A stretch of DNA of 64,000 bases, from NCBI RefSeq assembly GCF_030124325.1, contig NZ_JASKLR010000014.1:62001-126000 (forward strand). The letters run 5' to 3'. Under the pieces are notes generated by a model. The model had not been told where the DNA came from, searched no databases, and saw nothing but the letters and a program-made list of their open reading frames with translations. Both the position numbers and the translations under genes were made by a program. Position 1 is the stretch's first letter; each line of letters begins with the position of its first letter. This DNA is from Sinorhizobium sp. 8-89 (lineage in GTDB: Bacteria; Pseudomonadota; Alphaproteobacteria; Rhizobiales; Rhizobiaceae). Below are positions 22,195 to 50,031 of the stretch, in pieces.

Positions 22195-23065
22195 ATGCGT
22201 GCGATAGATGGGCGCGGTGAGGCTATCGGACACCATGGCGAGCTTGTTCAGGGCGTTTTCGAGGACGAGGATGCTCGCTTGCGCCGCGGCTTGGTCTCGC
22301 TGCCATGCCGCCACCTCAACTCAAAGGCACGGTTCAGGGCGAACGCAGAGGGGCGGGTGTCCGTAACCCCACGCCATTGTGAAAAGTCATTGCGTGCCGT
22401 GGAGCTCACGCTCAACAGATTCGCCGGGGTCAGGACTGGTGGGCACCTTACAATCGAAAGCAACATCCCTGTTGGACGCGGCATGGGTTCATCTACCGCC
22501 GATGTGCCGGCCAGCATTTTGGCCGTTCTCGATTCCCTGGATGTCCAGCCAACGCCTCATGAGGTGATGAAAATTGCAGTGAGCGCTGAGACGGCATGCG
22601 ATTCCACGTGGTTCTCTCAGCAGGCGGTGCTCTTCGCACAAGGGGATCGTGATTGAATCATTCACAAACTCGCTCCCGCCCTTCGACTTGATCAGCGTCG
22701 ATACAACTGGCGGGCAAAAGGTCGATACTCTCGCATTTGAGCCGGCACGGTATAGCCCTGAGGAGATCGAAACCTTTCGTCCTCTCCGGGCCCTCTTGCG
22801 TCGAGCGATCAAGGCGTCCGATTTCGCCTTGCTTGGCCGAGCAGCGACCGCGAGCGCTTGGATCAACGAGCGGTTCCTGCCAAAACCGCGCCTTACCGAC
22901 ATCGAAACTATCGGCGTTTGTCACGGCGCAGTCGGTGTACAGGTTGCCCACAGTGGGACAGTCGTTGGCTTAATGTTCGATCCAGCCAATGAAAAGACCT
23001 CCGACAACATGGAACGAGCGATGCATGACCTGAGAAAGTCGGGTTTTGAGCCCTCGATCGTCTAA
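22195..23065 (+). pseudogene. GHMP kinase, L-threonine kinase (PduX)-like, frameshifted
   Basis: Two frames form one kinase of about 290 residues. The first (22195-22656) has GEAIGHHGELVQG and the glycine-rich ATP loop PVGRGMGSSTADVPAS. The second (open to 23065) carries the rest: LPPFDLISVDTTGG, ARYSPEEIETFRPLR and the C-terminal GVCHGAVGVQVAHSGTVVGLMFD. The phase change falls near 22640. The family phosphorylates L-threonine or similar hydroxyamino acids (PduX in cobalamin side-chain synthesis). With the frameshift the product lacks half its fold, so it is probably inactive. It overlaps the next gene region by a few bases. Confidence 0.75.
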
Positions 23066-23093
23066 CATCGAGGCAACCGGTTGGAGAGAAGCA

Positions 23094-23998
23094 GTGTTCA
23101 ACCGAGTTCTAATGCGCAAGTTTGAAGCTTTCGAGAATCCCCGAATTGTCGAGTTGAGCGATGGGGTGTATGGCGCCAGCTTCTTTCTTATGAAGCTCCT
23201 TCCTGCGCGCTTTATGCTGGAACGGGCCGTGGAGCAGGGATTGCTGAAGCCAGGTGCGACGATTTGTGAATCCTCCTCGGGCAACTCCGCTCTCGCCTTG
23301 GCCATGCTTGCCGTACAGCATGGCTACAAACTCATCCTGGTGAGCGACTGGACGCTCGACCGACACCTTCATCGGCGCCTTCTCGGGCTTGGCGCGCACG
23401 TGGAGATTGTCGACGAGCCGGCGCCCACTGGTGGGTTTCAACAGGCACGGTTGGACAGGCTTGGAGTGTTGCTTAAAGAGATACCGAACAGCTATTGGCC
23501 CGCGCATTACTCCAACGCGGACAATCCCATCGCCTATGCGAAATTCGCAGAACTGCTTATCGACAGGGTAGGAGAAATCGACTGTCTGGTCGGGTCTGTT
23601 GGATCGGGGGGATCCATCTGCGGCACGTCCAAGTATCTACGGATACTCTTTCCCGAGTTGCATGCCGTTGGCGTTGATGCGCCAGGGTCCGTTCTGTTCG
23701 GACAACGTAGTGGCAGGTTACGCCTTTACGGGACTAACATTGTACCTTCCAATCTCGACCACAGACACTTTGATGAGATTCACTGGCTGACGCGTGCGGA
23801 GGCGTTTTACGCGGCTCATCAGTTGCACCGGGACCATGGACTATTCTTAGGCCCCACCAGCGGTGCTGCATCAGAGTTGCCGATTGGTGGTCACACAGAA
23901 ACCCAGGCAAGAAGGTGGTCGCGATCTTTCCCGACGAGGGGCATCGGTACGTCGAAACTGTGTACGACGAAAACTGGCTCTTCTCGGTTCCAGGATAG
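23094..23998 (+). pseudogene. PLP-dependent cysteine-synthase-family enzyme, frameshifted near the 3' end
   Basis: A fold-type II PLP enzyme related to cysteine synthase. Motifs: FFLMKLLPARFMLERA (degenerate relative to the usual NPxxSxKDR region), the cofactor-binding ESSSGNSALALAML, and the phosphate loop GSVGSGGSICGTS. After GLFLGPTSGAASE the frame is lost; the next phase continues VADWWSHRNPGKKVVAIFPDEGHRY and ends ENWLFSVPG, stop 23996. So one indel near 23875 breaks the last 40 residues. The GTG start at 23094 is chosen because GGAGAGAA precedes it. Downstream of the kinase on the same strand, likely once co-transcribed. Confidence 0.75.
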
Positions 23999-24026
23999 CC
24001 TTCGTCGGTGCACCCAGAGCCAATAG

Positions 24027-24549
24027 TTGTTGCAGCGCCTATGGTAGAAATGACCGGCTGGTCCTCGTATTTCTGGGGCAGGCGGACACTCGATGAAGTG
24101 CTCTCGAGCGTCGTCGAAAGTGGGCCAAAGCCTTCTCGCCTTCAGCCACTTGCCGGCATCAGACCTCCGCGGCAGGGCTGAGCTGGCGCGACATCTTTGG
24201 CAAGCTCCGGCATGATGGAGAGAGCCCGATCTCGGCCAACTCCACGGATAAATCTCACGCACACCCTGGGCGGCGGTCTTGATGTGATAGAGCTCCGAGA
24301 TGGCCGCCTCCGGCGCCAACGCAGGCGAGGTCTGGTCCTGGCAAGATGTAAAATCGACATTTCACCAACAGCTCCTCACTGCTGCAGCATGCCGCGTCTG
24401 CTCGCCACGAGACCGGACGATCACCGTAGTGATTGTCATGGGAATGGCATTCGGCCAAAGGTGATATCGCGCTCCCCTTTCGAGTTCAGCGTGGATGCGA
24501 CTTGGGCGGATCTAATGCTTGCGCGCAAACTCCATCAAGGAAGCAAGCC
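24027..24549. other. Decayed stretch
   Basis: About 520 bases between convergent broken genes. Short frames on both strands; none recognised. A phrase on the minus strand (PEAAISELYHIKTAAQGVREIYP, in part) could be a relic of another enzyme but was not identified. Confidence 0.4.
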
Positions 24550-25187
24550 TCACGCTAGCTGCCACAACAGGAAGCACATTGCAGCGATGTACAGCAAGAC
24601 AGCCGGTAACACGTTCGGACTTTCTCGCGGGAAATAGAATGGAGAGACATTCGCCACGGCGAAGAGCAAATACAGCGTGGTCACCATCGACCAGATCGTC
24701 TGAAATTGTAGCCACTTTGCCACCACGACTATCGCAGCCATGACCAGTATATTATGTGCGATCGGTAGACCCAAAACCTTCCCGTCGTGTGTGGCGCCAT
24801 ATACGTTGAAGAAGCTCAGGCGAATAACCCCCGTACAAGCAATAAACACGGCCGCTAGCCAGTGCGGCACCGCGTCCGGCGAAACGCACACGACGAAGAC
24901 GATGGGTAAACCGCGCTGCTGACGAGGTCGGCAAACGAGTCAAGGTTCGCGCCCATTTCCTTGATCTGAGACGCCCTCGGTCCGATCTTTGTGGCCACCC
25001 ACCCATCTACCCAGTCCGACGCGACTGCAAGTAGCGCGAAGATTAGCGACAGTTCGTACCTGCCCCTAATCGCATTGATTATCGCGATAATGGACAGGCA
25101 AAGCCCCATCTGGGTAACAATGTTCGGGAGATCCACGATGGTGACCAGCATACTGCGGGGTCTTTCTTCCAAGGGTGTGATTCTCAT
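24550..25187 (-). pseudogene. CDP-alcohol phosphatidyltransferase, frameshifted
   Basis: Two minus-strand frames form one integral membrane enzyme of about 210 residues. The first contains LPNIVTQMGLCLSIIAII and the catalytic motif region ASDWVDGWVATKIGPRAS, then GANLDSFADLVSS, close to the family pattern DxxDGxxAR-x8-GxxxDxxxD (T-K replaces A-R). The second frame gives the remaining membrane segments (LAAVFIACTGVIRLSFFNVYG, ILVMAAIVVVAKWL, VLLYIAAMCFLLWQL). A shift near 24890 separates them. The family moves a CMP-activated alcohol or phosphatidyl group to make phospholipids. Its start overlaps the stop of the upstream nucleotidyltransferase (ATGA). Confidence 0.75.
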
Positions 25188-25624
25188 CTCCGATTCCTTT
25201 TGTTCTCTACCACTGCTAAACGTCTTCGGCGGGCGCTCTTTGGTGAGCTAGCAGACGACGAAAACAGGACCTGGGCTTGGCGATAGTCTTCCAAGTCATC
25301 GATCTCTATCCAGCGCGACCCATGACAGGCGACGGCGTGGATCTCATCCGCGTTCTTCGAGATCAGCTCCGTCAAAACATCTTCGTAAAACCACGATGAA
25401 TTTCCCCGGCCGATCGCTTCCTCCATCGTCGGGACGAGATGTTGCTGAAGAAAATCCGCAGAGAATCGCTGAATGCTCAAGGTCTTTTGAAGTGAACCTG
25501 TTGAAGTTTCGGCATCTTCGTCCCTGCGGATTACTCGGAGCCGAGTGATCCTTTGACGGGCGTCGCCGGCCGCCAGCACCACCGCCGAGCGTGTCGCGTG
25601 TTGGCTTGAACATTGATCCATCAA
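25184..25624 (-). pseudogene. Nucleotidyltransferase with internal deletion
   Basis: A 146-residue frame. It starts like an NTP transferase (TRSAVVLAAGDARQRI), but then jumps to the C-terminal half of such enzymes (SWFYEDVLTELISKNADEIHAVACHGSRWIEIDDLEDYRQAQ). About 90 central residues with the metal-binding aspartate are missing, so it cannot be active. Comparable enzymes activate phospho-alcohols with CTP. It lies divergent from the fused nucleotidyltransferase gene and directly upstream of the CDP-alcohol phosphatidyltransferase. Confidence 0.6.
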
Positions 25625-25661
25625 TGCATCTCAACTCTTTGGCGCACCTTGACTTAGAGTC

Positions 25662-25707
25662 CGACTTTGAAGTCGCACTAATCAACTATCCGATCTGGTA
25701 GTGGATA
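25662..25707. promoter_or_regulatory. Conserved divergent control region, copy 1
   Basis: It holds the dyad CGACTTTGAAGTCG followed ten bases later by CTATCCGATCTGGTAGTGGA. Both parts recur upstream of the second, degenerate nucleotidyltransferase at 41220-41265 in the same order and orientation relative to that gene. Conservation between two otherwise diverged copies suggests an operator and promoter for the divergent genes. Confidence 0.55.
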
Positions 25708-25761
25708 AAGGGCACGATCCTCAGTTATTTTTGAGGGCGTGCCCAGTTCGAGGATAGACAA

Positions 25762-27668
25762 ATGCACAAAGTTCGGACTTTGGCGATTGTTATCATCGAC
25801 CCTCGACAGACGATCTCGACCTGGAAAAAGCGCTTCTCAGCAGCCCTGGGTATGGTTGGCGGCACGTCGGTTCTGCGACGCTTATTATCTCAATTGGCAC
25901 GTGCCGGCGTGCAGAAAACGATTGTCCTGGCGCGGGGAACTATGGGCGACATCGCCGGCGACTTCGGCGACGAGGTGGATGGGATGGAGCTCTGCTTACG
26001 CGCTCTGCCCAGGCCAAACGCCGGACGTCTTATTGACGCAGTAACGATAGATGAAATCGCCCACGTTGGCGGGGAAGTTCTGGTCTTCACCGATAATGTG
26101 GTTATGGACTTCGAGTTGATCGAGCGCCTGTTGCGGTCGCCGGACCGCAACATTGCCGCGGTCAGCAAATCACACGGCAGACGATCCCTGCGCATACTAG
26201 CGGACAACGTGCTGCGCCTTACAGCAATCCTACCCAACCGCTCTCTAAGACAGAAGAACGCCTCTGCCGACTCGAACCTGGTCGGCGTTTATAAGTTTAA
26301 CTCCGCGCTCGTTCGCGCGATTGACCGAAACCGCCGGCATCGCACGCATGACGATCTCGAGTTCTTTGAAACCGCATTAGGAATTCCAGCACATCAGATG
26401 CACGTCATGTATGCCGAACCCCATCGTGCAGTGCCGGTGAACGATGCCGTCGAGCTTGAGACCGCCAATTTCGCGTTCAGTTCCAGTTCCGATCAGCTGG
26501 CAACGGTTGAACACTTGCACGGCGGTTATTGGCGGTATCCAGTCAGTGAGCACATCTTGCTCTGTAACTGCCATTTTCCTCCCGCCGCACTGTTCGACCG
26601 AGTCAGGGAACGCTTGCCGGAACTCCTTCATCTTTATCCTTCTGGTCATGACGAAATTGCCGCGCGTGTCGCGGAGATGGCTGACGTTCCGGCTGAGTGC
26701 CTTGCTATCGGCAACGGAGTGAGCGAGCTCCTGAAAGCCCTGTACGGTCACCTCGATCCACGCTTGTTATCCCGACTCCAACATTCGTTGAATATCAGAA
26801 TGCGCTGGCACCGAAGAAGGTGAGTTGTTTCGAGCTTCCGGCTGACACTTTTGACCTCAACGTCAGTGATTTCGCAAATTATGCCAAAACGAGGCAAGCG
26901 TCGGTCGCTGTTGTCGTCAACCCGAACAACCCTACGGGACGGCTCGTTTCCGTGAAGAACCTATTGCGGTTGGCCTCGTCTCTTGCCGCCGCAAAATGTC
27001 GGCTAGTGATCGATGAGTCCTTCATCGAGTTCACAGGCGTCGGAAAGAAAAATTCGGTCGAGGGCTTCCTGAGCGAATATCCGAATATCATCATACTCAA
27101 AAGCCTATGCAAGATCATTGGATTGGGAGGCGCGCGGCTCGGCTATCTCGCCTCGGCAGACAAGCAGCTCGTCCAGGCAGTTCGCCGGCGACTTCCGCTG
27201 TGGAATGTAAACGGCATCGCCGAATATCTCCTTTGGATCCTGCCGGAATTTCGCGACGAGTGGCGCGCGAGCTTTCGACGCACCCGAGCGGACGTCAGGT
27301 CCTTCTCTCAGATGCTAAGGTCTATTCCAAACTTTAAAGTGTTCCCGTCCCATGCGAATTTTCTATTTTGCCGGATTCCGAATGCTTGGCCCGGAGCAAA
27401 ACACGCTGCCGAAATCCTCGCTATCCGTTACGGCCTCTTGGTCAGGCATTGCGGATATCAATCCATGAAAGACGGCGATCGCTATTTGCGCCTGACCGCG
27501 AGAAGGAACGAAGAAAACACCGGTCTTGTGGCGGCGCTGCGCCAGATCAACGAGGATTTTAGTTCTTCGGTCAAGGCGGCAGCGACGGATTTCCCCGTCG
27601 CGTCCGCGCACCGTGCGGGCAATCTCCACGCGAGCAGCCTTCGGAGGCATCTTGATGTTGATGGCTAG
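25762..27668 (+). pseudogene. Fused nucleotidyltransferase / CobD-HisC-like PLP enzyme, frameshifted
   Basis: The first frame (25762-26823) begins with a MobA-like nucleotidyltransferase of about 240 residues ([32 protein letters not shown], then [14 protein letters not shown]). It runs into a fold-type I PLP domain ([32 protein letters not shown]). The second frame (open from before 26760 to 27668) completes that domain: VVNPNNPTGRL, VIDESFIEF and the Schiff-base lysine in KSLCKIIGLGGARLGY. The frame changes near 26760. The N-terminal glycine-rich NTP loop is also degenerate ([13 protein letters not shown]). CobD/HisC-like domains decarboxylate or transaminate phosphorylated amino acids; the fused partner would then activate the product with CTP. 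Confidence 0.7.
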
Positions 27669-28694: not shown

Positions 28695-29534
28695 TTACAA
28701 TTCGATAATTCCGAGGGTTGTTGCTTTTACAGCCGCGACCGTTCTGCTAGTGACATCCAACTTTCGCAATACGTTCTTCATGTGATAATTCACGGTGTTC
28801 TCGGAAATTCCCAGAATAACGCCTATATCCCAAGACGATTTCCCTCTTGCCGCCCACAGAATACACTCTTTCTCCCTTAGCGAAAGGTCAGAAGCTTTCC
28901 ATTTACAGCGCGAATTAACGACCTGCGCGGCTCTCAGATGGAAATGAAACGCAGCAAGTTGCAAGTAGGTGATTGTTTTATAGTGAAGTTCTCGGCAGGT
29001 TTTTCGAGCAAAGCTCATGATCGCGAAGTCAATGCCGAGGCCGTGCAATGGAACACTGATGCCCGACTTTAAACCGAAAGTCGCGGCCTCGTCGAAAAAG
29101 CGCCGTTCCACTTCCGTCGTATTTACGTCATTGTACACCTCGCTCCATCGAAAGGCGCCCAACTGTTTTCTGCTCTTTTTGATGATGGGGTCAATCCTGT
29201 GGTAACCCATCTGAATATAATGTTCCTGCCATTCATCAGGATAGCTCCTGAGGGCCGGAGTGCGTGGGACCGACTTCGGGATCGGGTCGGCTGGATGAGT
29301 ACTATAGGCGATCCACGGACACCCATACTGAAGGGCAAAGGCCGATAACAGATCGAATAGTTGCTCGGATCGAGCGACACCATCAGTCTGGTCCAGAAAC
29401 CGGCTGAAGTCGATCGGAAACGCCTCCTTGGCTGGTTCAAGGGAAACCATCGACGGGACCAACGAGAGCCGATCGGATACTCTGCCTCTCGGTCCTCGAA
29501 CTTGAGAAAACGCAGTCATCCGCGGGCGTTCCAT
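28695..29534 (-). CDS. LuxR-family regulator with autoinducer-binding domain
   Basis: A 279-residue protein from the ATG at 29534, which has a strong GGAGGAGAGG site (the frame is open further upstream but without support). Residues 55-190 fit the autoinducer-binding domain: CPWIAYSTHP, YPDEWQEHYIQMGYHRIDPI, FGLKSGISVPLHGLG. The C-terminal GerE-type helix-turn-helix is LSLREKECILWAARGKSSWDIGVILGISENTVNYHMKNVLRKLDV. No luxI-type gene is in the window, so it is a LuxR solo or answers to signals from elsewhere. It points the same way as the NRPS-PKS gene, with an IS110 between them. Confidence 0.88.
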   Translation of the reverse strand: MERPRMTAFSQVRGPRGRVSDRLSLVPSMVSLEPAKEAFPIDFSRFLDQTDGVARSEQLFDLLSAFALQYGCPWIAYSTHPADPIPKSVPRTPALRSYPDEWQEHYIQMGYHRIDPIIKKSRKQLGAFRWSEVYNDVNTTEVERRFFDEAATFGLKSGISVPLHGLGIDFAIMSFARKTCRELHYKTITYLQLAAFHFHLRAAQVVNSRCKWKASDLSLREKECILWAARGKSSWDIGVILGISENTVNYHMKNVLRKLDVTSRTVAAVKATTLGIIEL

Positions 29535-30098
29535 AGCCTCTCCTCCGGAGCTTGGTGCTCCGCAACTTGTCACTGGAGCACAAGCTGCCGATTGCCCGAG
29601 ACTGCGGCTTTGCGCGTCCTCGCCGGTAGACAGCATCGCCAAACAGTAACGACGCGAATACGAGCAATGTGCGGTTCCTGGTGAATCGCAACGAACGACT
29701 TTCAAAAGTCGTGCCAACATCGCAATAAGAACATCGGAGGAGCTCTTCTGCATCTTAATCAACGGCTTAATGTGATTGCAGCAAGAGCCAGGTCGAACAT
29801 CACGATGTTACGGACTCGACAATCCCGCCACAAGCAGCCATCTCGTCTACCAGATTCCGCTGGACAGCGGGTTTCTCGGCCGTCGAGTTCGATGCGCCGG
29901 CTCTGGTGAGTGACTCAGAGTGGCTCTGACCGAGCGGTCAGCTTACATTTCAGTAGATGCGAAATTCGAAGATGGCGATCAATCGCATCGTACAAGTCAG
30001 CCATTTTGAGCCGCAGCTCGTGGATTGAGAGCCCTCTTTGTCCCGAGAAGATTCTTCGTACAAGAGCAACAACGCTCACAGCGTGGTATCCACAATCT
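29535..30098. other. Intergenic stretch between LuxR gene and IS110
   Basis: About 560 bases. The first 60 hold the luxR-type promoter region, including a weak dyad CTTGT-N9-ACAAG at 29566-29584. No other gene is recognised. Confidence 0.45.
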
Positions 30099-31102
30099 TT
30101 ATAAGCGCAGAACTTCACTTTCCCTCGCCTGGGATCTGAGATCATGATTTGGTGGAGAGGGGAGGGCGACTGTCTTCGCTGTCAAGCTTTGCCATGATTT
30201 ATGGTCCCGGATCCTGGCGTTGAGGACTGTAAGCAATTTGCGCATGGTTGGGACGACGACGATCTTGGGCTTTCCAGTGGCGGCGAGGCGATCGCGGAGT
30301 GCCTTGATGGTGGGGTGTGGCGGATGCTGACGAGGGCGGCCATGAAAAAGGCCGCGCGCACGGAACTGCGCCCGCCGCCGATGAAGCTCTTGCCGCGCCA
30401 CTTGCCCGACTGGCGGGTGAAGGAAGCCAGCCTCGCGAGCGCGGCGATCTGACGGCGATTGAGGCTGCAGAGTTCGGGCAACTGGGCGAGCAGGGTTCTC
30501 GCCGCCGGCGGCCCAATTCCGGGCAGCAGCTTCTCCCTGACCCGCCACAGCGGCGACTCGCGGATGTGGTCGTCCAAGTCGGCGTCGATCGCTTCCAACT
30601 CGCGCTTCAGCGCGGCGAGCAGCCGTCTGATGCTCTTGAGGGCCTGGCGGCTGCTCGCCGAGCGCAGACGGTGCTGCTCGGCCATGACCACCTGGACGAT
30701 TTGGCGCCGGCGGGTAACAAGGCCGGCCAGCACGCGCGTCGCCGAAGGGGGGAGCGGCGGCCGCAACTGCGACCGCACGGCGGCGGCGAACGCAGCGATC
30801 ACCGCCGCATCGATTGGAGCGGTCCTGGCGCGTTTGCGTAGCGCGTTGGCGAAGGCACGCACCTGCGCCGGATTGACCACGACCACCGGCAGACCCGCCC
30901 CGGCCAGTGCCGCGACGGCCAACCGCTCCAGGCCGCCTGTGGCCTCGAGCGCGATTCGCTCCGGCGCAGCCCGAGAAAGCCTTTCCCGCAACTCGGTAAT
31001 GCCGACATCATCATTGCCCACCCGGAAGCGCTCGCCTGTCGGCAGCACATGCACGTCCAACCAGTCCTTCGAAACGTCGGCTCCTACGAAAGTCGCCTCC
31101 AT
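30099..31102 (-). pseudogene. IS110-family transposase, frameshifted
   Basis: The main frame (30182-31102) has the DEDD N-terminal domain (FVGADVSKDWLDVHV, RIALEATGGLERLAVAAL, VVNPAQVRAFANALRKRARTAPIDAAVIA) and the C-terminal transposase_20 domain (LPGIGPPAARTLLAQLPELC, RQSGKWRGKSFIGGGR, VRAAFFMAALVSIRH). One extra base near 30320 then shifts the frame; the true end (TIKALRDRLAATGKPKIVVVPTMRKLLTVLNA) lies in the next phase, running to 30099. The element separates the LuxR gene from the NRPS-PKS gene. IS110 elements lack typical inverted repeats, so the ends were not set. Confidence 0.85.
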
Positions 31103-31310
31103 CTTTCCCCATCCTTGCCTAAGCCTCGCGCGCAGTCACCAGCGACTGTTCGGGTTCTATGGAAAGGCGGACGAAGACCCCAGCTCTGCCACGGGCTGCC
31201 TTTAGGGGGCTTCGGTCTTCCGGCAGTGAGTAACTGTAGAGCAGTGCAAACCGCCGCACTCGAATCCATGGGATTACCCGTGGCCGGTCCGTCACGTATT
31301 CGCAATATCT

Positions 31311-34300
31311 CTAATGGAAGTAGAGAATTTGCTTTATCAACTCCGCAATCTGCGGCGCGTTGTCATGCCGCATAATGGTGAAATGGTCTCCACGAACGAC
31401 GTGAACGTCCACGTTGGCTGCAACTTTCTTCCATCCCCATGTGGGATCAACTGAAGTTGCTTTCTCCGTTGGCAATTGGCTGCCAAAGACCCCTACTGTT
31501 CCCGCTCTTACAAATGTGAGCGGGATGGTCGTTTCGCTGGCTTCAAATTTCGCTGCAATTATAGTATTTGCCCAATAGATCGCGGCTGTTTGTTTCAGAC
31601 TAGGATCGATCGTTCCGGTGGCACAAGCAAGATCCAATGCATCGAATGCCTTTGCCGGCGTTTCTGATATCATTGCGTTGAAGCTCTTCTGGTCCAGTGG
31701 GTGTGCGGCCCGCCCACTCACAGAGATTACTGGGGAGGCACTCGCCGGGATGTCCAAAATCATCACTCGTGCGACGTCGACATTCTGCCGATGGAGCTCG
31801 ACGGCCACCTCGTTTGCGATTTTGCCTCCAAAAGAGTAGCCGATTAGAACTACGCGATTGCCATTTGCTGCCTCTTTGGCGCGAGCAGTCATTGGGACGA
31901 TAATGTCAGACGGCTCGATTTCATTTCGCCATGGATCAAGGCCTGTTGGGTATTCAAGGATTTCAAATGAGAGATCACCAAGTAAGGGAAGGAGCCCTGC
32001 GAAGTCCATCGGCTCGCCTGTGATGCCGGGAATAAGAAGAAGCCGAGCATCGTTCCGCGTCAAATCTTGCAATGTGGTATGCAGTCGGGAGGCGGTCTCG
32101 TGTACTTCCGTAGCAAGGCGGCGCGGAGTTCGGCTACTCATGATCACGGTCGAAGATGCGGATGTTCCAACAGATTTTCGCAGCCTGTTACGGAGTTCGA
32201 TCAAACCCAACGAATCTAGTCCAAGATCGCGCCATTCGAGATCCGGATCGATAGCTAATACATCCCTTTCCCCGAGAAGCATAGCAATCTGCTCTATGAT
32301 TAGCCGCAAGACGCCCTCTTCGGTTTGATCTAGTGATTTGACCAGACCCCTGGGCTGCCTAGATTCACTGGGCTGATCGCGAGGGCCAACAGCCGCAGTC
32401 GGCGTAGCAAATGAATCGGTTTCCGGGCTGCAGCTGAATCGTTTCCTGCGAAATGGATAGGACGGCAAGGATACGCGATGCCACGGCTTCGTAGACGCAA
32501 GATCATCGAATCGGATATCGATGCCACGTTTGAACAATTCGGCGACGGCCGTGAGGAATGTTTTCACTTCACAAGAGCTGCGGCAAGAGGCAATCCAGGT
32601 CCTCTCAGCGTCGGGGTCATTTTCCATACCCAGACCAACAAGCATGGGTTTAGACCCGAGCTCAACAAAAATTGTTGATCTATCTTCAAGCATGTACTGA
32701 AGCATACGGTCAAAGCGGACCGGTTCCATGACGTGATCCGTAAGGTATTCGGTCCAGTCAAGATTGCTTAGAAGAGGTGCTCCTGTGACGGAAGAGACGA
32801 CAGGAATTACTGGGTCAGAGAAGGAAAGCCGCGCGATGACGGATGTATATTCGTTAATAATGGGGCGCATCTGCTCGGAGTGGAAAGCGTGGGACACTGG
32901 CAGCGAGGTGACGCTGCAACCGGACACTTCACCAGCATCAATAAGCTTTGCCATAACATCTCTGCCACCGGCCAATACGATGGAGTTTGGTGAATTGAAC
33001 GCCGCCACACTCACATCGCCGGATAAATTGGAGACGAGAAGTGCAATATCTTGCGCGCTACCTTTGGCGACGGCCATAACACCTAGTCCGGCAGGAATAT
33101 CCCCCATTAATCGTCCCCGCTCAGAAACGAGGACGCACGCATCGTCCAGCGACAGGGCTCCTGCAGCAACCCACGCCGCAATCTCACCCAAACTATGGCC
33201 GGCCACCTGCTCAAGCTGAACGCCGAAAGACCGAAAAAGACACGTCATGGCGTACTCGAACGCGAAGATCGCCGGTTGCGCAAACTGGGTGAGATTCATT
33301 CTTGGTTCCAAACCGGGTGTCTCTCCCACCACCTGCTCAAGGTCGATCCCATGGCTAATTCTTATGCGCTTGAAGCAATCTTCCATCGCGTTCTTGAAGA
33401 CAGGAAAAGCGCGCGCGAGCTCCGTACCCATCTCCGTGCGCTGGCATCCCTGACCAGTAAATAGCCCGGCAATTTTAGTTCGACCTGCACTGTCGGAGGG
33501 TAACAGTGCTCCCTTGATGACATCGTCAAGGAACCGGGACAACTCGACTTTGCTCGAAACCGCATTAGCGATCCGATATCGTTCCGGCCGGCGGCCGACA
33601 CAGGAGGTCATACATACGTCTCGCAAACTCAGGTCCTCGCTAGACGAAGTGACAAGATTGTACATTTCCTGGGACAGAGTGATTAGTTGTTCGGGTGTTC
33701 GAGCCGATAGCACGAAGATTTCGTGCTGCAGAGAACTACAAGCGTCTTGCTCAGCATCACGACGGTTTTCCCGGCCCTCAAGGATAATGTGACAATTGGT
33801 GCCTCCTATGCCCAAGGAGGTGATAGCTGCCCGTCTTGGTCTTCCCGGTCGACTCTGCCAGTTCTGCGCTTGCCCATGTGCAATTTTCAGGCGGGATCCG
33901 TTTAGGGTCACGCGCTCATTTGCGTTCTGAAACGTCGGGATGGCCGGGATTTTGCCCTGTTGAACACAGAGGGTTGCTTTAACCAATCCTGCTGCACCTG
34001 CCGCTTCATCAAGGTGGCCGATGTTAGCCTTCAGGGATCCGACCAGGCAATGTTCAGCGGCGGAAGGTTCGCCGTATGTTGATAGAAGTGCCGCAATCTC
34101 AATGGAATCGCCAACCGGTGTGCCAGTTCCATGCGCTTCAACATAGTCAATGTCGGAGGCAATAAGACCGGCGTCCGCCAGAGCTGCGTTGATAACTTCA
34201 ACCTGACCTTCCAAGCTCGGCCCAGTATAGCTCAGTTTGCGGCCGCCGTCGTTGTTGACAGCGGTACCGACAATCGCCGCCAAGATTTGATCGCCATCGC

Positions 34301-36917
34301 GAACCGCAAGATCATAGTTTTTTAAAACGAGGACCGCGCATCCGTTTCCAAACACGGTCCCGTCGGCCGCCGCATCAAAGGGTCTGCAGGAGCCCGTCGG
34401 TGATAGGATCAGCCCCTCGTGCGCAAAATAACCCACATTCTGTGGCGTGCAGATTGATACGCCACCCGCAATTGCCATGTTGACTTCTCCGCCACGAATG
34501 GCCTGGGTAGCATGATGGACTGCGACCAATGCACCTGAGCAGGCCGAACCTATAGAGACACTGGGGCCTGTCAGATCTAACTTGTTCGATACTCTCATCG
34601 AGATTTGCTCGGGAGAGTTGCCTTGCTCGATAAGAATCTCTTCGATATCGCGAATGAGACGGTGGCTCAAAAAAAGTCCATCATCCTCTTTCATCACCGT
34701 GGGTAAAATACAGTTGATGAGATAAGTGCTCGAGCCACTGGCCGAGTAGACGCCTGTATGATAAGGCACTTTCGTCGGTGCATAGCCGGCATTCTCGAGC
34801 GCATGCCATGAGCATTCTAAGAAAACGCGATGCTGCGGATCCATCAGCGAAGCCTCACGCTCACTGATTCCAAAGAATTCGGCATCGAAATGATCATGGT
34901 CGTCAAGAAATCCACCGATCCTGACGAAGTGCTCGCGTTCCGCCAGTGTCGGTGGGTCGTCCGTGGATGTCGTAAGCAAGACGTCATTCCTTAGAAGGCC
35001 GCGCCAAAGAGCGTCAACTGAGTCGGATCCAGGAAAACGACCTGCCATGCCGATAATTGCGACGTCCTTTCGCGCAGAAGGAACAGAGGTCAGCTTGCTT
35101 TTGCTTGTGGCGCCACGAGATCTTGCAATTTTGACGATCGACTCCTGCGTAGTCTCAACTGAAATGTCTGCCACCGAGATGTCAGCCTGCAGTTCTTGCT
35201 GCAGGCGTGTTACCAACTGCATCGCACTAAGTGAATCCCCTCCTGCTCCGGAGAAACTTCGCCCTTCACCACCAGGGAGGACATCATTCCAGATATCGGA
35301 AACTGCTTGCTCGAAACTTTGCTGCTTGCGTCTAGGAGAAGGGAGTACGGCAATGGCGGAGGATGCCATAGCCTCAAGCGCTCGGCGGTCAACCTTTCCG
35401 GTCGACGTCTTGGGAAACGTCGACACCGTATAGACGCGGTAAGGAACAGCTGCCTCGTCCAGGGTGTCGCGAACGATCATTCTAACATCTTCCTGCAGGA
35501 TGTCCCCGGTAGACTCTTCCGTCAGCGTTACGAAACCTATCAATTCGACTCGCCCGCTGATCTCAGTTGCTACAACCGCAGCCTGTCTGATGCGTCGAGA
35601 ACGTTCTATTGCGGTTTCTACAGCTGCCACGTCGACCTGTTGGCCGCGGACCTTCACTTGCCGGTCAATTCGCCCCGTGATTGAAATACTGCCGTCAGCC
35701 AGGATAGATCCGAGGTCGCCCGTAAGGTACTCGTTAGCTGAACTTGTGGAGGTTGCAGGAAGGGGCAAGAGACCGTCAGTGTCGCCCTGCATGTACCCCA
35801 TTGCAACCTGGGGCCCTGTGACAACGATTTGTCCTTTAGATCCTGGATCCGACGTGACACCTGTGGGAGTGAGTACGCTCACTTGCATGCCCGCAATGGG
35901 GAGCCCGATTGATGGCAGATCCGGCCATTGATCAGGATCTCCGTCGAGTTGCAGCGACGTAACGTCTTGCACCTCTGTTGACCCGTAATTGTTGTGAAGT
36001 ACAGCTCCAAGTCGTTTGAAAAGCGACCGAATATTACCGTTGATCTTCAACTGTTCCCCAGCTGTAGTAATGTCCGTGAGGTATAGCGGTTTGGTGAATG
36101 AAGACGATGCGAGTGCCAGCTGATTTAGCACAGTGTACGGCAGGTACGCCTTTTCGATGCGGCTTGCAGAAAGTAAATCTAGGAGTAGGCCGATATCCCG
36201 CCGCTGCTCACTCGTTGCTAAGACCGCCGTTCCTCCCGAACTGATCGCCGTAAACAACTCATGAAACGCAATGTCGAAATGGAAGGATGCGAATTGCAGA
36301 TGGATCACACCCGGTTCACATCGTCTATGACATATATCCCATCGGATTAGGTTGGCGAGACCCCTATTTGACATGAGCACCCCTTTCGGCGTTCCGGTCG
36401 TACCGGACGTGAAAAGCAGGTAGCAGCCCGAATCGGGTATTGCTTGATATTGATCACTTGAGAACTCGTGGTTTGCTTGCCGGTCGACAAGAACCATTTC
36501 GATATGGAAAGAGTCGAAGAGCGGTCGCACATCGGGAGTGACCGGAGTGCTGTGAGTAACAAGAGCAAACCTGGCTCGCGAGGTTTCTAAGATATGGCGC
36601 GTCTTCGCCTCGCCCCCGGAAAGATCGAGGGGACACACTATCGCTCCCCGAAGTAGAATTCCCGCAATAAGGAACACTGTGTCCAGGTGACGGGAAGGAC
36701 TAATCAAGACAATGTCGCCTGTGCCCACACCCCACTCTGCTAACCGGCGTGACACATACGATGCCTTACGCAACAGCTCGTTGTAAGTCATTCGCTCGTC
36801 ACCGCACTGAACTGCGATACTTTCGGGATATTTCTGTGCGCACTCCACAAAGGCCTCAGATACGGTGCGCCAGAGTTCGACGCGGGATTGACTGCTAGAC
36901 TCGTTGTTACCGGTCAT
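31311..36917 (-). CDS. Single-protein hybrid NRPS-PKS (A-PCP-KS-AT-ACP-TE)
   Basis: An 1868-residue megasynthase. Adenylation domain (about 20-520): core motifs LLFTSGTTGTPKGV, FDIAFHE, NNYGSTEVQD, YLTGDLG and lysine motif PKTSTGKVDRR. Carrier 1: GGDSL, Ser562. Ketosynthase (618-1050): Cys793 in GSACSGALVA, His929 in EAHGTGT, His968 in KANIGH. Acyltransferase (1150-1440): Ser1242 in GHSLGE and HAFH at 1343-1346, the malonyl-specific form. Carrier 2: GLDSLGL, Ser1569. Thioesterase (1625-1868): Ser1695 in GYSFGG and GDHFTIM. No condensation or reductive domain exists, so an activated amino acid is extended once with malonate and released as a beta-keto product or cyclised. Codon use is richer in A/T than in neighbouring catabolic genes, suggesting acquisition. 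Confidence 0.93.
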   Translation of the reverse strand: MTGNNESSSQSRVELWRTVSEAFVECAQKYPESIAVQCGDERMTYNELLRKASYVSRRLAEWGVGTGDIVLISPSRHLDTVFLIAGILLRGAIVCPLDLSGGEAKTRHILETSRARFALVTHSTPVTPDVRPLFDSFHIEMVLVDRQANHEFSSDQYQAIPDSGCYLLFTSGTTGTPKGVLMSNRGLANLIRWDICHRRCEPGVIHLQFASFHFDIAFHELFTAISSGGTAVLATSEQRRDIGLLLDLLSASRIEKAYLPYTVLNQLALASSSFTKPLYLTDITTAGEQLKINGNIRSLFKRLGAVLHNNYGSTEVQDVTSLQLDGDPDQWPDLPSIGLPIAGMQVSVLTPTGVTSDPGSKGQIVVTGPQVAMGYMQGDTDGLLPLPATSTSSANEYLTGDLGSILADGSISITGRIDRQVKVRGQQVDVAAVETAIERSRRIRQAAVVATEISGRVELIGFVTLTEESTGDILQEDVRMIVRDTLDEAAVPYRVYTVSTFPKTSTGKVDRRALEAMASSAIAVLPSPRRKQQSFEQAVSDIWNDVLPGGEGRSFSGAGGDSLSAMQLVTRLQQELQADISVADISVETTQESIVKIARSRGATSKSKLTSVPSARKDVAIIGMAGRFPGSDSVDALWRGLLRNDVLLTTSTDDPPTLAEREHFVRIGGFLDDHDHFDAEFFGISEREASLMDPQHRVFLECSWHALENAGYAPTKVPYHTGVYSASGSSTYLINCILPTVMKEDDGLFLSHRLIRDIEEILIEQGNSPEQISMRVSNKLDLTGPSVSIGSACSGALVAVHHATQAIRGGEVNMAIAGGVSICTPQNVGYFAHEGLILSPTGSCRPFDAAADGTVFGNGCAVLVLKNYDLAVRDGDQILAAIVGTAVNNDGGRKLSYTGPSLEGQVEVINAALADAGLIASDIDYVEAHGTGTPVGDSIEIAALLSTYGEPSAAEHCLVGSLKANIGHLDEAAGAAGLVKATLCVQQGKIPAIPTFQNANERVTLNGSRLKIAHGQAQNWQSRPGRPRRAAITSLGIGGTNCHIILEGRENRRDAEQDACSSLQHEIFVLSARTPEQLITLSQEMYNLVTSSSEDLSLRDVCMTSCVGRRPERYRIANAVSSKVELSRFLDDVIKGALLPSDSAGRTKIAGLFTGQGCQRTEMGTELARAFPVFKNAMEDCFKRIRISHGIDLEQVVGETPGLEPRMNLTQFAQPAIFAFEYAMTCLFRSFGVQLEQVAGHSLGEIAAWVAAGALSLDDACVLVSERGRLMGDIPAGLGVMAVAKGSAQDIALLVSNLSGDVSVAAFNSPNSIVLAGGRDVMAKLIDAGEVSGCSVTSLPVSHAFHSEQMRPIINEYTSVIARLSFSDPVIPVVSSVTGAPLLSNLDWTEYLTDHVMEPVRFDRMLQYMLEDRSTIFVELGSKPMLVGLGMENDPDAERTWIASCRSSCEVKTFLTAVAELFKRGIDIRFDDLASTKPWHRVSLPSYPFRRKRFSCSPETDSFATPTAAVGPRDQPSESRQPRGLVKSLDQTEEGVLRLIIEQIAMLLGERDVLAIDPDLEWRDLGLDSLGLIELRNRLRKSVGTSASSTVIMSSRTPRRLATEVHETASRLHTTLQDLTRNDARLLLIPGITGEPMDFAGLLPLLGDLSFEILEYPTGLDPWRNEIEPSDIIVPMTARAKEAANGNRVVLIGYSFGGKIANEVAVELHRQNVDVARVMILDIPASASPVISVSGRAAHPLDQKSFNAMISETPAKAFDALDLACATGTIDPSLKQTAAIYWANTIIAAKFEASETTIPLTFVRAGTVGVFGSQLPTEKATSVDPTWGWKKVAANVDVHVVRGDHFTIMRHDNAPQIAELIKQILYFH

Positions 36918-37337
36918 GGTGTCCTCGAAAGTTTGCTATCGGTAAGTCCACGCGACCACTAAGGAAGCGATATCGTGAACCCTGTTGCCTGAGAGACGAA
37001 GCAAACAGGCGCGGATCCTCCGCATCGTCGATTAGTCGCTTTGTTTTGGACACGACAATCCGGGGTGGCGCTATCACGTTCAACATGCTCCATTGTTAAG
37101 ACTAAGTATTATTGAATTAATCCCAGCGATACTACTAAGATTGGTAGTTGCCATAACCTTTGTCACGTTTAACTACTGCGGGTGCTGCTTCAACGGTGAA
37201 GGGAAATTGCTGGCGTGGCCGTGTGCTAAAGCAGGATCGCTAGCACAGCACGGCGCCCGAACACGTTTCGAAGCGGTCCTAAGCTGGATCCTGACGACAG
37301 ACGGTCGCAGGGCTTTAACCCCTCCGCGAGACCAAAA
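36918..37337. other. Divergent promoter region of NRPS-PKS and PPTase
   Basis: About 420 bases, notably AT-rich around 37090-37170. It must hold promoters for both divergent genes. No nod box, clear lux box or sigma-54 site was recognised. Confidence 0.45.
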
Positions 37338-38006
37338 ATGCAGACATGCAATCCTGGCCAAAGTCCCCTACTGTCCTTGAGCTTGGAGCTACCGGCCCTT
37401 TTGAAGATGGATAGAGTGGTGATCGCCCTCCAGAAGTGGTCACCGACGGAACAACATTCTTGCACTTTTCTTTCACCTGGCGAAAAGGATCGCTTTGCAC
37501 AACTTCGAAGCTCCTTTGCGCGAGCAGAGTTCGTGGCAGCAAGAACCGCTCTGTATCATGCAGGACTGGCACTTGGATGCGACGCAAGCGCAAGTGATAT
37601 CAATTACGACAAGACCTCAGGAAAGCCTTACTTCGACCCGTTCGAGGGCTCCTTTAATTTCAGCATTGCACACACTTTGGGGTTGGCTTGCTGCGTCGCA
37701 TCTCTAGAGCATCAGGTTGGTTGTGACTGTGAGAGATGGGATCGCTCCATATATGCCGAGGCATTGGCCTTTTTCTTTAAAAGAAGATTCGCGACAGATA
37801 GGGAATACCTAATAGAGTGGACAAGGCTCGAGGCGTTCTTGAAGCTGCGCGGTCAAAGATTGATCGACAGAATCGACGAGAGGGGTCGGCTCATTCCATC
37901 CGCTTCGAGGGAAGTTGAGGAAATGCATATTTCTCAAGTGACCTTTAACCTCAATAGGAAGTTCGTCGTCAGCTACTGCACGGATTCCTCCAAGGCACCT
38001 TATTAG
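37338..38006 (+). CDS. 4'-phosphopantetheinyl transferase (Sfp-like)
   Basis: A 222-residue enzyme that loads the phosphopantetheine arm onto carrier domains, here presumably the two carriers of the divergent NRPS-PKS. Motifs: KPYFDPFEGSFNFSIAHT (P1/P2 region), GCDCER at the position of the metal-binding VDIE motif with Asp and Glu kept, and WTRLEAFLKLRG for the WxxKEAxxK motif with the first Lys replaced by Leu. An ATG at 37407 (MDRVVIALQKW) may be the true start, giving 199 residues. Its stop codon TAG straddles the end of the target duplication of the following IS: the coding end is unchanged by the insertion. Confidence 0.88.
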   Translation: MQTCNPGQSPLLSLSLELPALLKMDRVVIALQKWSPTEQHSCTFLSPGEKDRFAQLRSSFARAEFVAARTALYHAGLALGCDASASDINYDKTSGKPYFDPFEGSFNFSIAHTLGLACCVASLEHQVGCDCERWDRSIYAEALAFFFKRRFATDREYLIEWTRLEAFLKLRGQRLIDRIDERGRLIPSASREVEEMHISQVTFNLNRKFVVSYCTDSSKAPY

Positions 38007-38437: not shown

Positions 38438-39163
38438 TCATCGGGCATGGGTCAGTGACGAGAAGAGAGTCTCATTCAAGAACTCGTCTCGCAGCTGCCC
38501 ATTGAAGCTTTCGATGAAGGCGTTTTGGATCGGTTTGCCCGGCGCGATATAGTGCCAATCCACCTTGGTCCGGTCCGTCCATTGCAGGATCGCGTTGCTG
38601 GTGAACTCGCTGCCATTGTCGCTGACGATCATCTTCGGCTTGCCGCGCTTCTTGATAATCCGGTCAAGCTCACGGGCAACCCGCAGGCCGGAAAGCGATG
38701 TATCGGCGACGAGTGCCAGGCATTCCCTGGTGCAATCGTCGACGACCGTCAGAACCCGGAACCTGCGTCCATCGGTGAGCTGATCCGACACGAAGTCCAG
38801 CGACCAACGATCATTGGCTGCCATCGGGATCAGCATCGGCGCTCGCGTGCCTATCGCGCGCTTTCGGCCGCCGCGTTTGCGCACCGTCAGCTTCTCCTCC
38901 CGATAGAGCCGGAAGAGCCTCTTGTGGTTCACAAGGTGCCCCTCGCGCCTGAGCAGCACATGAATGCGTCGATAGCCAAAGCGGCGGCGTTCATGCGCCA
39001 GCGCCTTCATTCGCTCGCGAAGGTCATGATCGTCGCTGCGGCTCGTTTCGTAACGGATAGTCATTCGGCAAAAGCCGATGGCTTTACACGCCCGCCGTTC
39101 GCTCATCCGATGTTGGTCCATCAGATGCGCGACAGCTCGCCGCTTGGCTGCGGGCGTCACCAC
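38438..39163 (-). pseudogene. IS3-family transposase OrfB (frameshifted at 3' end)
   Basis: An rve-type integrase: helix-turn-helix remnant [30 protein letters not shown], then the DDE core ([52 protein letters not shown], and [20 protein letters not shown] with the catalytic Glu). The frame stops soon after at HAR; the family ending (WRSDYNDNRPHSGLGWLTPAEFA) is in the next phase down to about 38245. OrfB overlaps OrfA as usual for programmed frameshifting. Confidence 0.82.
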
Positions 39164-39943: not shown

Positions 39944-40330
39944 TCAATAGGCAGAGCCGGACGCGTCATCGAGGTTGTGGCGCTCGGTGCCCTTTAGCGG
40001 CGGGTTGAAGATGCTGACGAGAACTAGGTCTTTGTCCCGCCCTCCGCGTAGATAATGCTTGTCATGCTTGTCGAGCACGTAGATGTCGCCCACGCGAATG
40101 GGAAAGACATTGCCTTCCATGTCCTCGACCTCGCCCTCTCCAGAAATGCAATAGCAGGCCTCCAGGTGGTTCCGGTATTGGAGCAGTGAAACGGTATTGG
40201 CTCGCACTAATGTGTGACAGACAGTAAACCCCATGCTGTCCTCTTCCGTGAGCAGACGGTGGCTCGTACCACTGCCCCACTCAACGAAGTGGTCGGTGGC
40301 TTCAACATCTTGCAGGCTGCGCACAAACAT
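39944..40330 (-). CDS. ectC: L-ectoine synthase EctC (orphan)
   Basis: A 128-residue cupin that closes N-gamma-acetyl-diaminobutyrate to ectoine, a compatible solute. Family text is clear: [68 protein letters not shown] and [11 protein letters not shown]. Metal and substrate residues in the HLEACYC and DKHDKH motifs are in place. An ACGGAGA site precedes the ATG. Neither ectA nor ectB is nearby, so it is a solitary ectC that would need an imported or otherwise made precursor, or act in reverse or on another substrate. It lies 13 bases after a degenerate nucleotidyltransferase frame on the same strand. Confidence 0.92.
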
Positions 40331-41995: not shown

Positions 41996-42109
41996 TCAGG
42001 CGGTGATGCAGACGGGCGCATTAAGACAGCGCTTCCCCAGAAAGTCGACATACTCGAGCTCGTCGATCCAAACGATCCTACTCGTCCCTACCACAGTTAC
42101 CGAGCTCAT
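41996..42109 (-). pseudogene. Truncated betainyl-CoA thioesterase
   Basis: A 37-codon frame beginning MSSVTVVGTSRIVWIDELEYVDFL, which parallels the intact thioesterase at 47134-47577 (MSWIVTWEGTVERDWLDELDHVNFL). Homology stops after about 25 residues. The start codon overlaps the stop of the upstream dehydrogenase (ATGA), exactly as in the intact copy, so this is the remains of the same two-gene operon. Confidence 0.7.
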
Positions 42110-43059
42110 CGGGCACTGCCGTCGCTCCTCCTGAGATCCTCGAGTAGCACCCTGATTTTCGCCAGCCCTTCGTTACGCAAAGCGATCATGTTGATCCGGC
42201 CCCTGCAGCCTATGCTCTGACAAACCTCGTCAGCGTAGGCTTTGATCAAAGCCTTATCGGGCTCGAAACTTGGAGGGGCGGTATAGCCGCTATCCAGTTC
42301 ACGCGCAAGCAGCTCGACAAAGTCCTGGTACAGGGAAGGGTCGCGAGCGCCCAGGTAGAACACGGAGGAAGGCCCCATCACAGCCCACCGAATAGCTGGG
42401 CCTGCTGCGATAGCTTTGTCGATAGCTTCGAGATCCGCCACACCCTGCGACAGCAGGTAGAGAATTTCCCTGAAGACAGCAAGCTGAATTCGATTGCCGA
42501 TGTAGCCATGAATTTCTCGCGTGAGCTCCACGACCTCACATCCAGTCATTCGGTAGAAATCTGCGGCGACGGCGACCGACTTTCCAGCGACGTCTCCTCC
42601 AGCCAACTCAACGAGCGGAACGAGATACGGTGGATTGAAAGGGTGACCGATGATGATCCGGTTCCCAAATCTTGCCTTACGTCTCAGGTCGGCAGCGAGG
42701 AAGCCTGAGGAGCTCGAAGCAATAACCACTTCGGGTGGCGTCAAGGCATCTATCTGCGCTATCAAAGATGTCTTAGCATCAACGTCTTCGGTCGCGCTTT
42801 CCTGGACAAATTGGCAATCTCGGAGTGCCTCTTGCAGATCCGTGGTGAACTTGACCCGCGAAGGGGATGCCCCCGATGCCAAACCAAGTTCTTCTAACGC
42901 CGGCATGGCCTTTTCAAGGGCCTCCCTTAGGAACGCTTCGCGCCCGGATGACTTGCCTTGAACGGTCACGTCCAAGCCAGCGCGCATAAAGTGTGCAGCC
43001 CAACCAGAGCCAATAAGGCCCGCGCCAACGCAAGTCACTTTGGTGATAGGATGGCTCAT
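42106..43059 (-). CDS. L-carnitine dehydrogenase-like 3-hydroxyacyl-CoA dehydrogenase, copy 1
   Basis: A 317-residue NAD-dependent enzyme of the 3-hydroxyacyl-CoA dehydrogenase superfamily, carnitine dehydrogenase branch (oxidises L-carnitine to 3-dehydrocarnitine). Rossmann motif VGAGLIGSGWAAHF at residue 10; catalytic region SSSSGFLAADL, GHPFNPPYLVPLVELAGG with His-Asn-Pro, and EIHGYIGNRIQLAVFREILYL. It is closely parallel along its whole length to the copy at 47574-48527. Its partner thioesterase is truncated, so this is a spare copy, perhaps still active. The first copy differs at DVTVQGKSSG where the other has HDQSAE. Confidence 0.9.
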   Translation of the reverse strand: MSHPITKVTCVGAGLIGSGWAAHFMRAGLDVTVQGKSSGREAFLREALEKAMPALEELGLASGASPSRVKFTTDLQEALRDCQFVQESATEDVDAKTSLIAQIDALTPPEVVIASSSSGFLAADLRRKARFGNRIIIGHPFNPPYLVPLVELAGGDVAGKSVAVAADFYRMTGCEVVELTREIHGYIGNRIQLAVFREILYLLSQGVADLEAIDKAIAAGPAIRWAVMGPSSVFYLGARDPSLYQDFVELLARELDSGYTAPPSFEPDKALIKAYADEVCQSIGCRGRINMIALRNEGLAKIRVLLEDLRRSDGSAR

Positions 43060-49679: not shown

Positions 49680-50031
49680 ATACTTCTCGGCGAAGGAATC
49701 GTCGTGCAGGGTGGGAAGCCCCGTTGGCGCTGATATTCTCCAGTGCGGCGACCCCGCCATTGTCACTCTGCGCGAGTTCGCGCGACTTTTCCCAAACGGA
49801 TCCCACCTCTGTCCCCCACCCGGGAATTGTCAATCTCATTCAAGTTTCAGTCGCCAACTTTCACTTGTCCCCAGAGCGGGAATCTCCGCTAGCTATGGAT
49901 ACGCTTCACAGTGAACGAGGCTTCTCAAGCAGCCTTCCCGACCAAGCGTTTTGTTTCAACGGCGCGGTGCTGATCCTTCGTCAGGGTCGGCGACGCTGGG
50001 TGGCAAGTCACGTCAATCATCGGAGACAAAC

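Follow-up and report, generated by a model that had tools for sequence, protein, structure and literature searches.

A 64-kb stretch of the 7.06-Mb genome of Sinorhizobium sp. 8-89 (hereafter the window) encodes, on a single chain, what its sequence firmly identifies as a real, intact and selected minimal assembly line of the nonribosomal peptide synthetase-polyketide synthase (NRPS-PKS) type. Our best explanation of its function, to which we give somewhat less than an even chance, is that an orphan homologue of the ectoine synthase EctC makes a cyclic-amidine unit, that a proline-like adenylation (A) domain loads it, that malonate is added and that a thioesterase (TE) releases the product. 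The original prediction for this DNA had overlooked EctC, the likely partner, as well as the resemblance of the pocket to that of proline-loading domains, and together these change the product that is to be expected. What is new about the system is not so much its small size as the fact that, in three differently built assembly lines, such a loading domain is paired with an orphan EctC. The synthase, its peptidyl carrier protein (PCP), ketosynthase (KS), acyltransferase (AT) and acyl carrier protein (ACP) domains, and the associated phosphopantetheinyl transferase (PPTase) and EctC genes are located as follows.

31311..36917, minus strand: NRPS-PKS synthase, 1868 amino acids (aa), A-PCP-KS-AT-ACP-TE, assigned with Pfam and NCBIfam; frame intact
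35373..36869, minus strand (edges approximate): adenylation domain, pocket code DIHYTANDV
35118..35330, minus strand (edges approximate): carrier domain 1 (PCP), GGDS
33777..35069, minus strand (edges approximate): ketosynthase, Cys-His-His present
32628..33476, minus strand (edges approximate): acyltransferase, GHSLG and HAFH
32094..32315, minus strand (edges approximate): carrier domain 2 (ACP), LGLDSL
31326..32000, minus strand (edges approximate; the Pfam match covers aa 1690-1864): thioesterase, GYSFGG with Asp and His
37338..38006, plus strand: PPTase-like gene, divergent from the synthase, with weak HetI and AcpT matches
39944..40330, minus strand: orphan-type EctC homologue, 128 aa, probable partner (PF06339, 2.3e-37; NF009806 over cut-off)

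Pfam matches in the synthase (E up to 0.001) comprised AMP-binding, PP-binding in two stretches, the N- and C-terminal parts of ketoacyl-synthase, acyltransferase and thioesterase; no condensation, ketoreductase (KR), dehydratase (DH) or enoylreductase domain was found in it at the same threshold. The A, PCP, KS, AT and ACP domains of a hybrid NRPS-PKS are thus present on a single chain together with their catalytic residues, and the motifs with established catalytic roles in the PCP (GGDS), KS (Cys/His/His), AT (GHSLG with HAFH), ACP (LGLDS) and TE (GYSFG/D/H) are kept across eight homologues. We take HAFH to mark an AT of the malonyl type, and Asp235 of the A domain, which is invariant in eight synthase sequences, is presumably the residue that binds the alpha-amino group. 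The genes lie where the earlier prediction had placed them. The architecture predicted earlier, with catalytic motifs and without condensation or reductive domains, was recovered in full, and its domain logic was upheld as well: an amino-acid-type starter would be loaded, extended with a malonyl-type unit and released by the TE as a beta-keto product. The ratio of nonsynonymous to synonymous substitution (dN/dS) was 0.21-0.25 across five synthase pairs (0.24-0.25 against Sinorhizobium terangae and S. shofinae) and 0.16 in the KS domain, values that indicate purifying selection.

The synthase family was found in eight genomes, the window genome included. Its closest named relatives belong to Sinorhizobium (S. 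terangae pCB3126_2, 84% identity; S. shofinae, 83%), followed by those of M. norvegicum, M. loti UFLA 01-765 and R. gallicum pRgalIE4872a (65-66%) and of two genomes of the window's own genus, G439 and G791 (63-64%). The synthase is rare, its TE part being detected in 5 of the 33 genomes of the genus, counting the window genome (E<=1e-10), and in 3 of the 394 of the taxonomic family (E<=1e-25). The synthase family is small and carried by nodule bacteria, and no characterised member was found; the earlier statement that it has no characterised relative holds within the collections and literature searched. The A pocket is near-invariant among the orthologues, and a divergent PPTase is found in the six relatives with upstream sequence (as a fragment in M. 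loti). The M. norvegicum, M. loti and R. gallicum synthases differ from that of the window by an inserted DH-KR segment, recognised with Pfam in R. gallicum, by tblastn with the DH-KR segment in M. norvegicum and by DH and KR motifs in all three. The position expected for the catalytic Tyr of the KR is occupied by His in all three of these long-form synthases, while the DH motif is intact. Since the KR would lack its catalytic Tyr, a beta-keto product is likely for both synthase forms, and the DH may serve a non-reductive dehydration.

In five of the eight family loci (M. norvegicum, M. loti, R. gallicum, G439 and G791; L003, L004, L006, L090 and L091/L092) the EctC gene sits directly between those for PPTase and synthase, about 80-100 bp from the A domain. 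Of the five adjoining PPTase genes four are intact, and that of M. loti is fragmented. The remaining three genomes each hold an intact orphan-type EctC. That of S. terangae is 6.3 kb upstream of the synthase, and that of S. shofinae, of the family type, is on another contig, where it adjoins a second PPTase and the truncated start of an A domain (L199 3478-5064, C204), a set apart from the contig with the intact synthase. The window EctC is of a second subtype and sits 3 kb upstream of the synthase in the same orientation, beyond the coordinates covered by the original prediction; no EctC occupies the place between PPTase and synthase that it takes in the five relatives. The link between EctC and the synthase is supported across the family and is weaker at the window locus, because the EctC genes of the window and S. 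terangae differ in history from their synthases.

The window EctC keeps the iron ligands E57, Y84 and H92, has Cys in place of N38 (Thr in the family type) and carries its Trp at position 18, not 21. It shares the signature W-G-x-G-x-S-x-R with the EctC of the family, and all 31 high-scoring canonical loci fetched carry W-x-S-x-R instead. A class III (EctB-like) aminotransferase is found within 5 kb in 27 of these 31 canonical loci and in none of the orphan-type loci of the same comparison, and none lies within 5 kb of the window EctC. A canonical ectoine operon was dismissed, as EctA over cut-off was missing in all seven genomes searched. Passages in the literature state that the role of solitary EctC is unclear (PMC6344544, PMC5924519), and one of these sources, in the part consulted, describes the binding residues of orphan EctC as mostly conserved, Asn38 as contacting the carboxylate of the ectoine precursor, and the formation of 5-imino-proline (ADPC) from glutamine as a side reaction of EctC (PMC6344544). 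Some orphan EctC enzymes may still form true ectoine.

The nine code positions of the A domains were mapped by motif onto the GrsA numbering. The pocket code DIHYTANDV is near-invariant in the eight synthases (DVHYTANDV in G439 and G791, DIHYTSNDV in S. terangae), and codes of the form D-x-H-Y-x-[A/S]-x-D-[V/I] recurred in two further, differently built assembly lines that bear an EctC. One is an NRPS of Mycetohabitans endofungorum, in which the first A domain, directly downstream of EctC, has the code DIHYIAHDV and scored 343 bits against the family, compared with 143 and 145 for the two remaining A domains of the fetched segment. The other is a split PKS with the code DVHYIAHDI in S. garamanticum, R. 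gallicum M101 and S. meliloti USDA1021; here EctC is the preceding gene (S. garamanticum), about 2 kb from the nearest PKS gene (R. gallicum M101) or about 26 kb away on a circular plasmid (S. meliloti USDA1021). No other A domain for which a code was derived shared this pattern (about 30 rows, partly incomplete, mostly from EctC neighbourhoods). DVHYIAHDI resembles the proline codes (D-V-Q-[F/L]-I-A-H-V-V), with polar changes and an extra Asp at 330. In the PDB, the top single-domain match to the A domain of the window synthase was tyrocidine synthase 2 (TycB, 9bfd_B), the first module of which activates proline. These features suggest that the A domain is proline-like and takes a cyclic, positively charged amino acid, for example a cyclic amidine.

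The association was also evident in neighbourhood counts on genome samples chosen blind to the neighbours, with only some of the EctC matches fetched. An A or KS domain (at least 75 bits with a model built from window-family domains, which distant A or KS domains may escape) was present within 8 kb in 5 of 20 orphan-type EctC loci (L066-L081, L194, L195, L200, L201) and in 0 of 31 canonical loci (L163-L192, L196; Fisher p 0.0066). Outside this test stood the two other EctC loci of the window genome (L064, L065), the genomes selected by their synthase, a locus with neither signature (L193) and short contigs. The five positives were an NRPS with several A domains (L079), one A domain cut by the contig end (L068), an A plus a KS domain (L201), an A domain (L200), and a match that resembles a fatty-acyl ligase (L078). 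Without the last the counts were 4 of 20 versus 0 of 31 (p 0.019), and with L064 and L065 added they were 5 of 22 (p 0.009). For L091 the count shows none, as its A domain sits on the adjoining piece L092. EctC matches were present in 67 of 72,556 plasmid records at the threshold used; 17 plasmid loci (L116-L132), hand-picked for diversity from these 67 and hence non-random, had an A or KS domain within 8 kb in 11 cases, those of L127 and L119 matching at below 95 bits. Orphan-type EctC was present on all five plasmid records with a window-family synthase (two) or the split PKS (three), a figure that is partly circular in that two of the three split-PKS records were reached through their EctC, and the third, S. 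meliloti USDA1021, was first an EctC record whose PKS was shown afterwards. NRPSs with the A-domain code DVQFYAQV also adjoin EctC (R. jaguaris, P. sabiae, Mesorhizobium AR07, G035 and G476), but this side of the pattern is weak, as most plasmid records with relatives of them are absent from the listed EctC records. Among titles and abstract openings in the literature searched, none tied EctC to an NRPS or PKS.

From the observed domains, motifs, family, gene neighbourhoods and pocket residues, we infer the substrate, the order of steps, the number of malonate units and the product. The dedicated PPTase would arm both carrier domains. The stand-alone EctC-type cupin, in the window strain either the 39944-40330 gene or one of its 87-90% identical copies at other places in the genome, would make a cyclic amidine amino acid that is ectoine-like or five-membered (ADPC), so that the synthase family most likely uses a building block other than a standard amino acid. 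The A domain, with its proline-like pocket and extra Asp, would recognise and load an alpha-amino-acid-type cyclic amidine; the KS would join the loaded unit to a malonyl unit, and the TE would release a small beta-keto product that probably closes to a bicyclic, tetramate-like lactam. A broader proposal, possible but on balance unlikely, is that some orphan EctC proteins are starter-unit enzymes of NRPS and PKS lines, their cyclic amidine amino acid being loaded by a proline-like A domain that bears the code D-x-H-Y-x-[A/S]-x-D, and that the window holds the smallest such line among those seen, which would give a bicyclic amidine tetramate.

Several findings weigh against this pathway. In the blind sample, neither an A nor a KS domain lay within 8 kb of EctC in 15 of the 20 orphan loci, and within the genus EctC was present in 5 of 5 synthase genomes and in 15 of 28 others, a difference that is not significant (p 0.065). 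The A domain of the DVQFYAQV NRPS occurs in 75 plasmid records, mostly without a listed EctC, and none of the 25 Bradyrhizobium records with this A domain was among the 60 of 67 EctC records listed. Control A domains from loci lacking EctC were few, about eight (L007, L008, L010, L045, L046, L082, L203), and the code strings were unmatched in the literature search. The window genome itself has three intact EctC genes, two of them with no synthase nearby (one of these two on a 6.9-kb contig); in addition, its contig C61 carries a family-type EctC that is broken. Between the window and S. terangae, synonymous divergence (dS) was 1.24 for EctC, 0.34 for the synthase and 0.71 for the PPTase, and the two EctC proteins are not sisters in the tree (moderate support). 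Co-inheritance of EctC and synthase in these two strains was ruled out on both counts, and the window EctC was accordingly placed independently, by replacement or by chance. An IS3 element separates the window EctC from the PPTase. Sub-cut-off EctA-like matches occurred in four of the seven genomes, and likewise in 7 of 14 controls.

The strongest competitor, which we rate as rather unlikely, is that a standard alpha-amino acid, perhaps proline, and one malonate give a beta-keto amino acid that either closes to a tetramic acid or decarboxylates, yielding an aminoketone, with EctC a passenger. It fits the domain logic, it agrees with TycB as the best PDB match and with a pocket that we presume to be close to proline codes, and it is favoured by the separate descent of EctC and synthase in the window and S. 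terangae; a passenger EctC is hard to reconcile with its position directly upstream of the synthase in five of eight family loci and with its association with a pocket code of the same kind in two assembly lines of different architecture. Alternatively, EctC might act late, closing the amidine ring on the released or carrier-bound product and not on the starter. The absence from the orphan EctC here of Asn38, the carboxylate-contacting residue in the part of the source consulted (PMC6344544), is what would be expected if the carboxylate were bound or extended, but the pocket code tracks EctC in the loci examined, which points to the loading step and makes a late role improbable. An iterative NRPS-PKS of the kind of fungal FnsA, in which a starter acid is extended with several malonates, is very improbable here in view of the invariant Asp235 in eight synthases, even though the A domain of FnsA is described, in the part of the report consulted, as loading an aryl acid to which three or four malonates are added (PMC9606254). 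That a decaying, silent locus in an IS-rich region is at hand, as the IS110 and IS3 elements beside the genes and the broken family-type EctC elsewhere in the genome might suggest, can hardly be entertained for an intact frame with dN/dS of about 0.24 and a KS domain at 0.16.

Returning to the proposed cyclic-amidine pathway, its PPTase-like gene matched no Pfam family at E<=0.001, and its curated-family matches, HetI (3e-7) and AcpT (1e-4), were both far under cut-off. It does contain VGCDCE (D-x-E) and WTRLEAFLK (W-(T/S)-x-x-E-A-x-x-K), which we take to be the Mg-binding and second motifs of an Sfp-type PPTase; the earlier assignment to the Sfp type is thus favoured by residues and not by a Pfam match. 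Relatives at E<=1e-15 were present in only 2 of the 72,556 plasmid records, and since both of these also carry a window-family synthase, the transferase can be called dedicated, as had been proposed. AlphaFold models of the PPTase (mean pLDDT 36) and of the A domain (39) were discarded as too poor.

The regulatory part of the original prediction, which had given the locus its own LuxR regulator, fared differently. The features concerned, including two insertion sequence (IS) transposases, are listed below.

28695..29762, minus strand: solo LuxR-type regulator, nearby, not dedicated (Autoind_bind and GerE, Pfam)
29806..29825, minus strand: 20-bp element GGATTGTCGAGTCCGTAACA upstream of LuxR
30182..31102, minus strand: IS110 transposase between LuxR and synthase, outside the system
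37042..37061, minus strand: 20-bp element GGATTGTCGTGTCCAAAACA upstream of the synthase; S. terangae retains its left part
38438..39163, minus strand: IS3 transposase between PPTase and EctC, outside the system

The LuxR open reading frame (ORF) as called has 355 aa and a TTG start and exceeds its annotated relatives, for example that of S. numidicum (7602-8435 of L008); the single LuxI-type match in the window genome is on another contig. LuxR relatives at E<=1e-40 occurred in 44 plasmid records, and the synthase at >=60% identity in only 2; in R. gallicum IE4872 the two genes are on different plasmids, LuxR on c and the synthase on a. This distribution ruled out LuxR as a member of the locus: it is a neighbour, common on rhizobial plasmids without the synthase and separated from it in the window by the IS110 element. 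S. terangae has only a LuxR fragment, about 10 kb upstream of its synthase, and M. norvegicum a 50% relative about 6 kb downstream. Of the three-gene set that had been envisaged, the PPTase stands, its relatives being found only with the synthase (2 of 2 plasmid records), while LuxR showed no such co-occurrence.

A point in favour of the LuxR claim is the 20-bp element common to the upstream regions of LuxR and synthase, in the same orientation. It had two window matches against 0.20 expected in shuffles (<=3 mismatches), a figure that overstates the case because the pattern was derived from its own two sites. Part of the element is also kept upstream of the S. terangae synthase, and TGT-N10-ACA is kept at the LuxR relatives of S. 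numidicum and S. garamanticum; in that form the element was absent upstream of the S. shofinae synthase and of the EctC-synthase units of M. norvegicum, R. gallicum, G439 and G791. We take TGT-N4-T-N5-ACA within it to fit a NifA-type site. A scan of three upstream stretches detected no sigma-54 promoter, so that control by NifA is not claimed, and a search for a nod box with up to 3 mismatches found none.

Further observations concern EctC genes and the rest of the window. On contig C61 (L064 5327-6283) an intact EctC of the window subtype lies about 170 bp from the broken family-type copy, and on contig C38 (L065 8940-9326) a solitary EctC lies between genes for an acetate-CoA ligase and a propionate-CoA-ligase-like protein, matches to similar flanking ligases being present in several relatives. 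An ATP-grasp ligase recurs near an orphan EctC or synthase, as judged by the L-amino-acid-ligase C-terminal domain (Pfam; L006, L128), by similarity (L092, L198) or by annotation (L116, L132). Orphan EctC loci in Streptomyces, Aliiroseovarius and one Rhizobiales genome (L118, L119, L120, L122, L201) contain an AMP-binding protein, and for L118-L120 the annotation adds a carrier protein and an acyl-CoA dehydrogenase. Elsewhere in the window are two 78%-identical 3-hydroxyacyl-CoA/carnitine-type dehydrogenase genes and a beta-keto-acid cleavage enzyme (42106-43059, 47574-48527, 49951-50916). At 22195-27668 a GHMP-kinase domain (153-aa ORF), a PALP enzyme, a CDP-alcohol phosphatidyltransferase and a CobD-like aminotransferase possibly form a threonine-phosphate-type pathway, perhaps decayed. 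Three nearby window ORFs had no match in PHROGs.

If the proposal is correct, the pairing of EctC with this A pocket would give some solitary EctC proteins a concrete, testable role and would add a cyclic-amidine building block to NRPS and PKS chemistry, a route not found in the literature searched; as a single-protein system of nodule bacteria, the synthase is suited to reconstitution. Set beside known systems, the window EctC belongs to the same protein family as the ectoine synthase (PF06339, NF009806) and shares its iron ligands and most binding residues, but it differs from canonical EctC in the missing ectA/ectB context, the replaced N38, the shifted Trp and the W-G-x-G-x-S-x-R signature. 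The split PKS of S. garamanticum, R. gallicum M101 and S. meliloti USDA1021 follows the same logic as the window synthase (A-PCP-KS / AT-DH-ACP-TE by Pfam in S. garamanticum) and is unlike it in being divided over two genes, with a partial N-terminal condensation domain and a DH; Pfam found no KR in that of S. garamanticum. The full domain order of FnsA reportedly matches that of the long-form synthases. In this fungal NRPS-PKS, as in the window synthase, an A domain loads the starter for a fused type I PKS; the part of the FnsA report consulted gives an aryl acid and three or four malonates (PMC9606254), in contrast to the cyclic amidine and malonyl unit that we propose.

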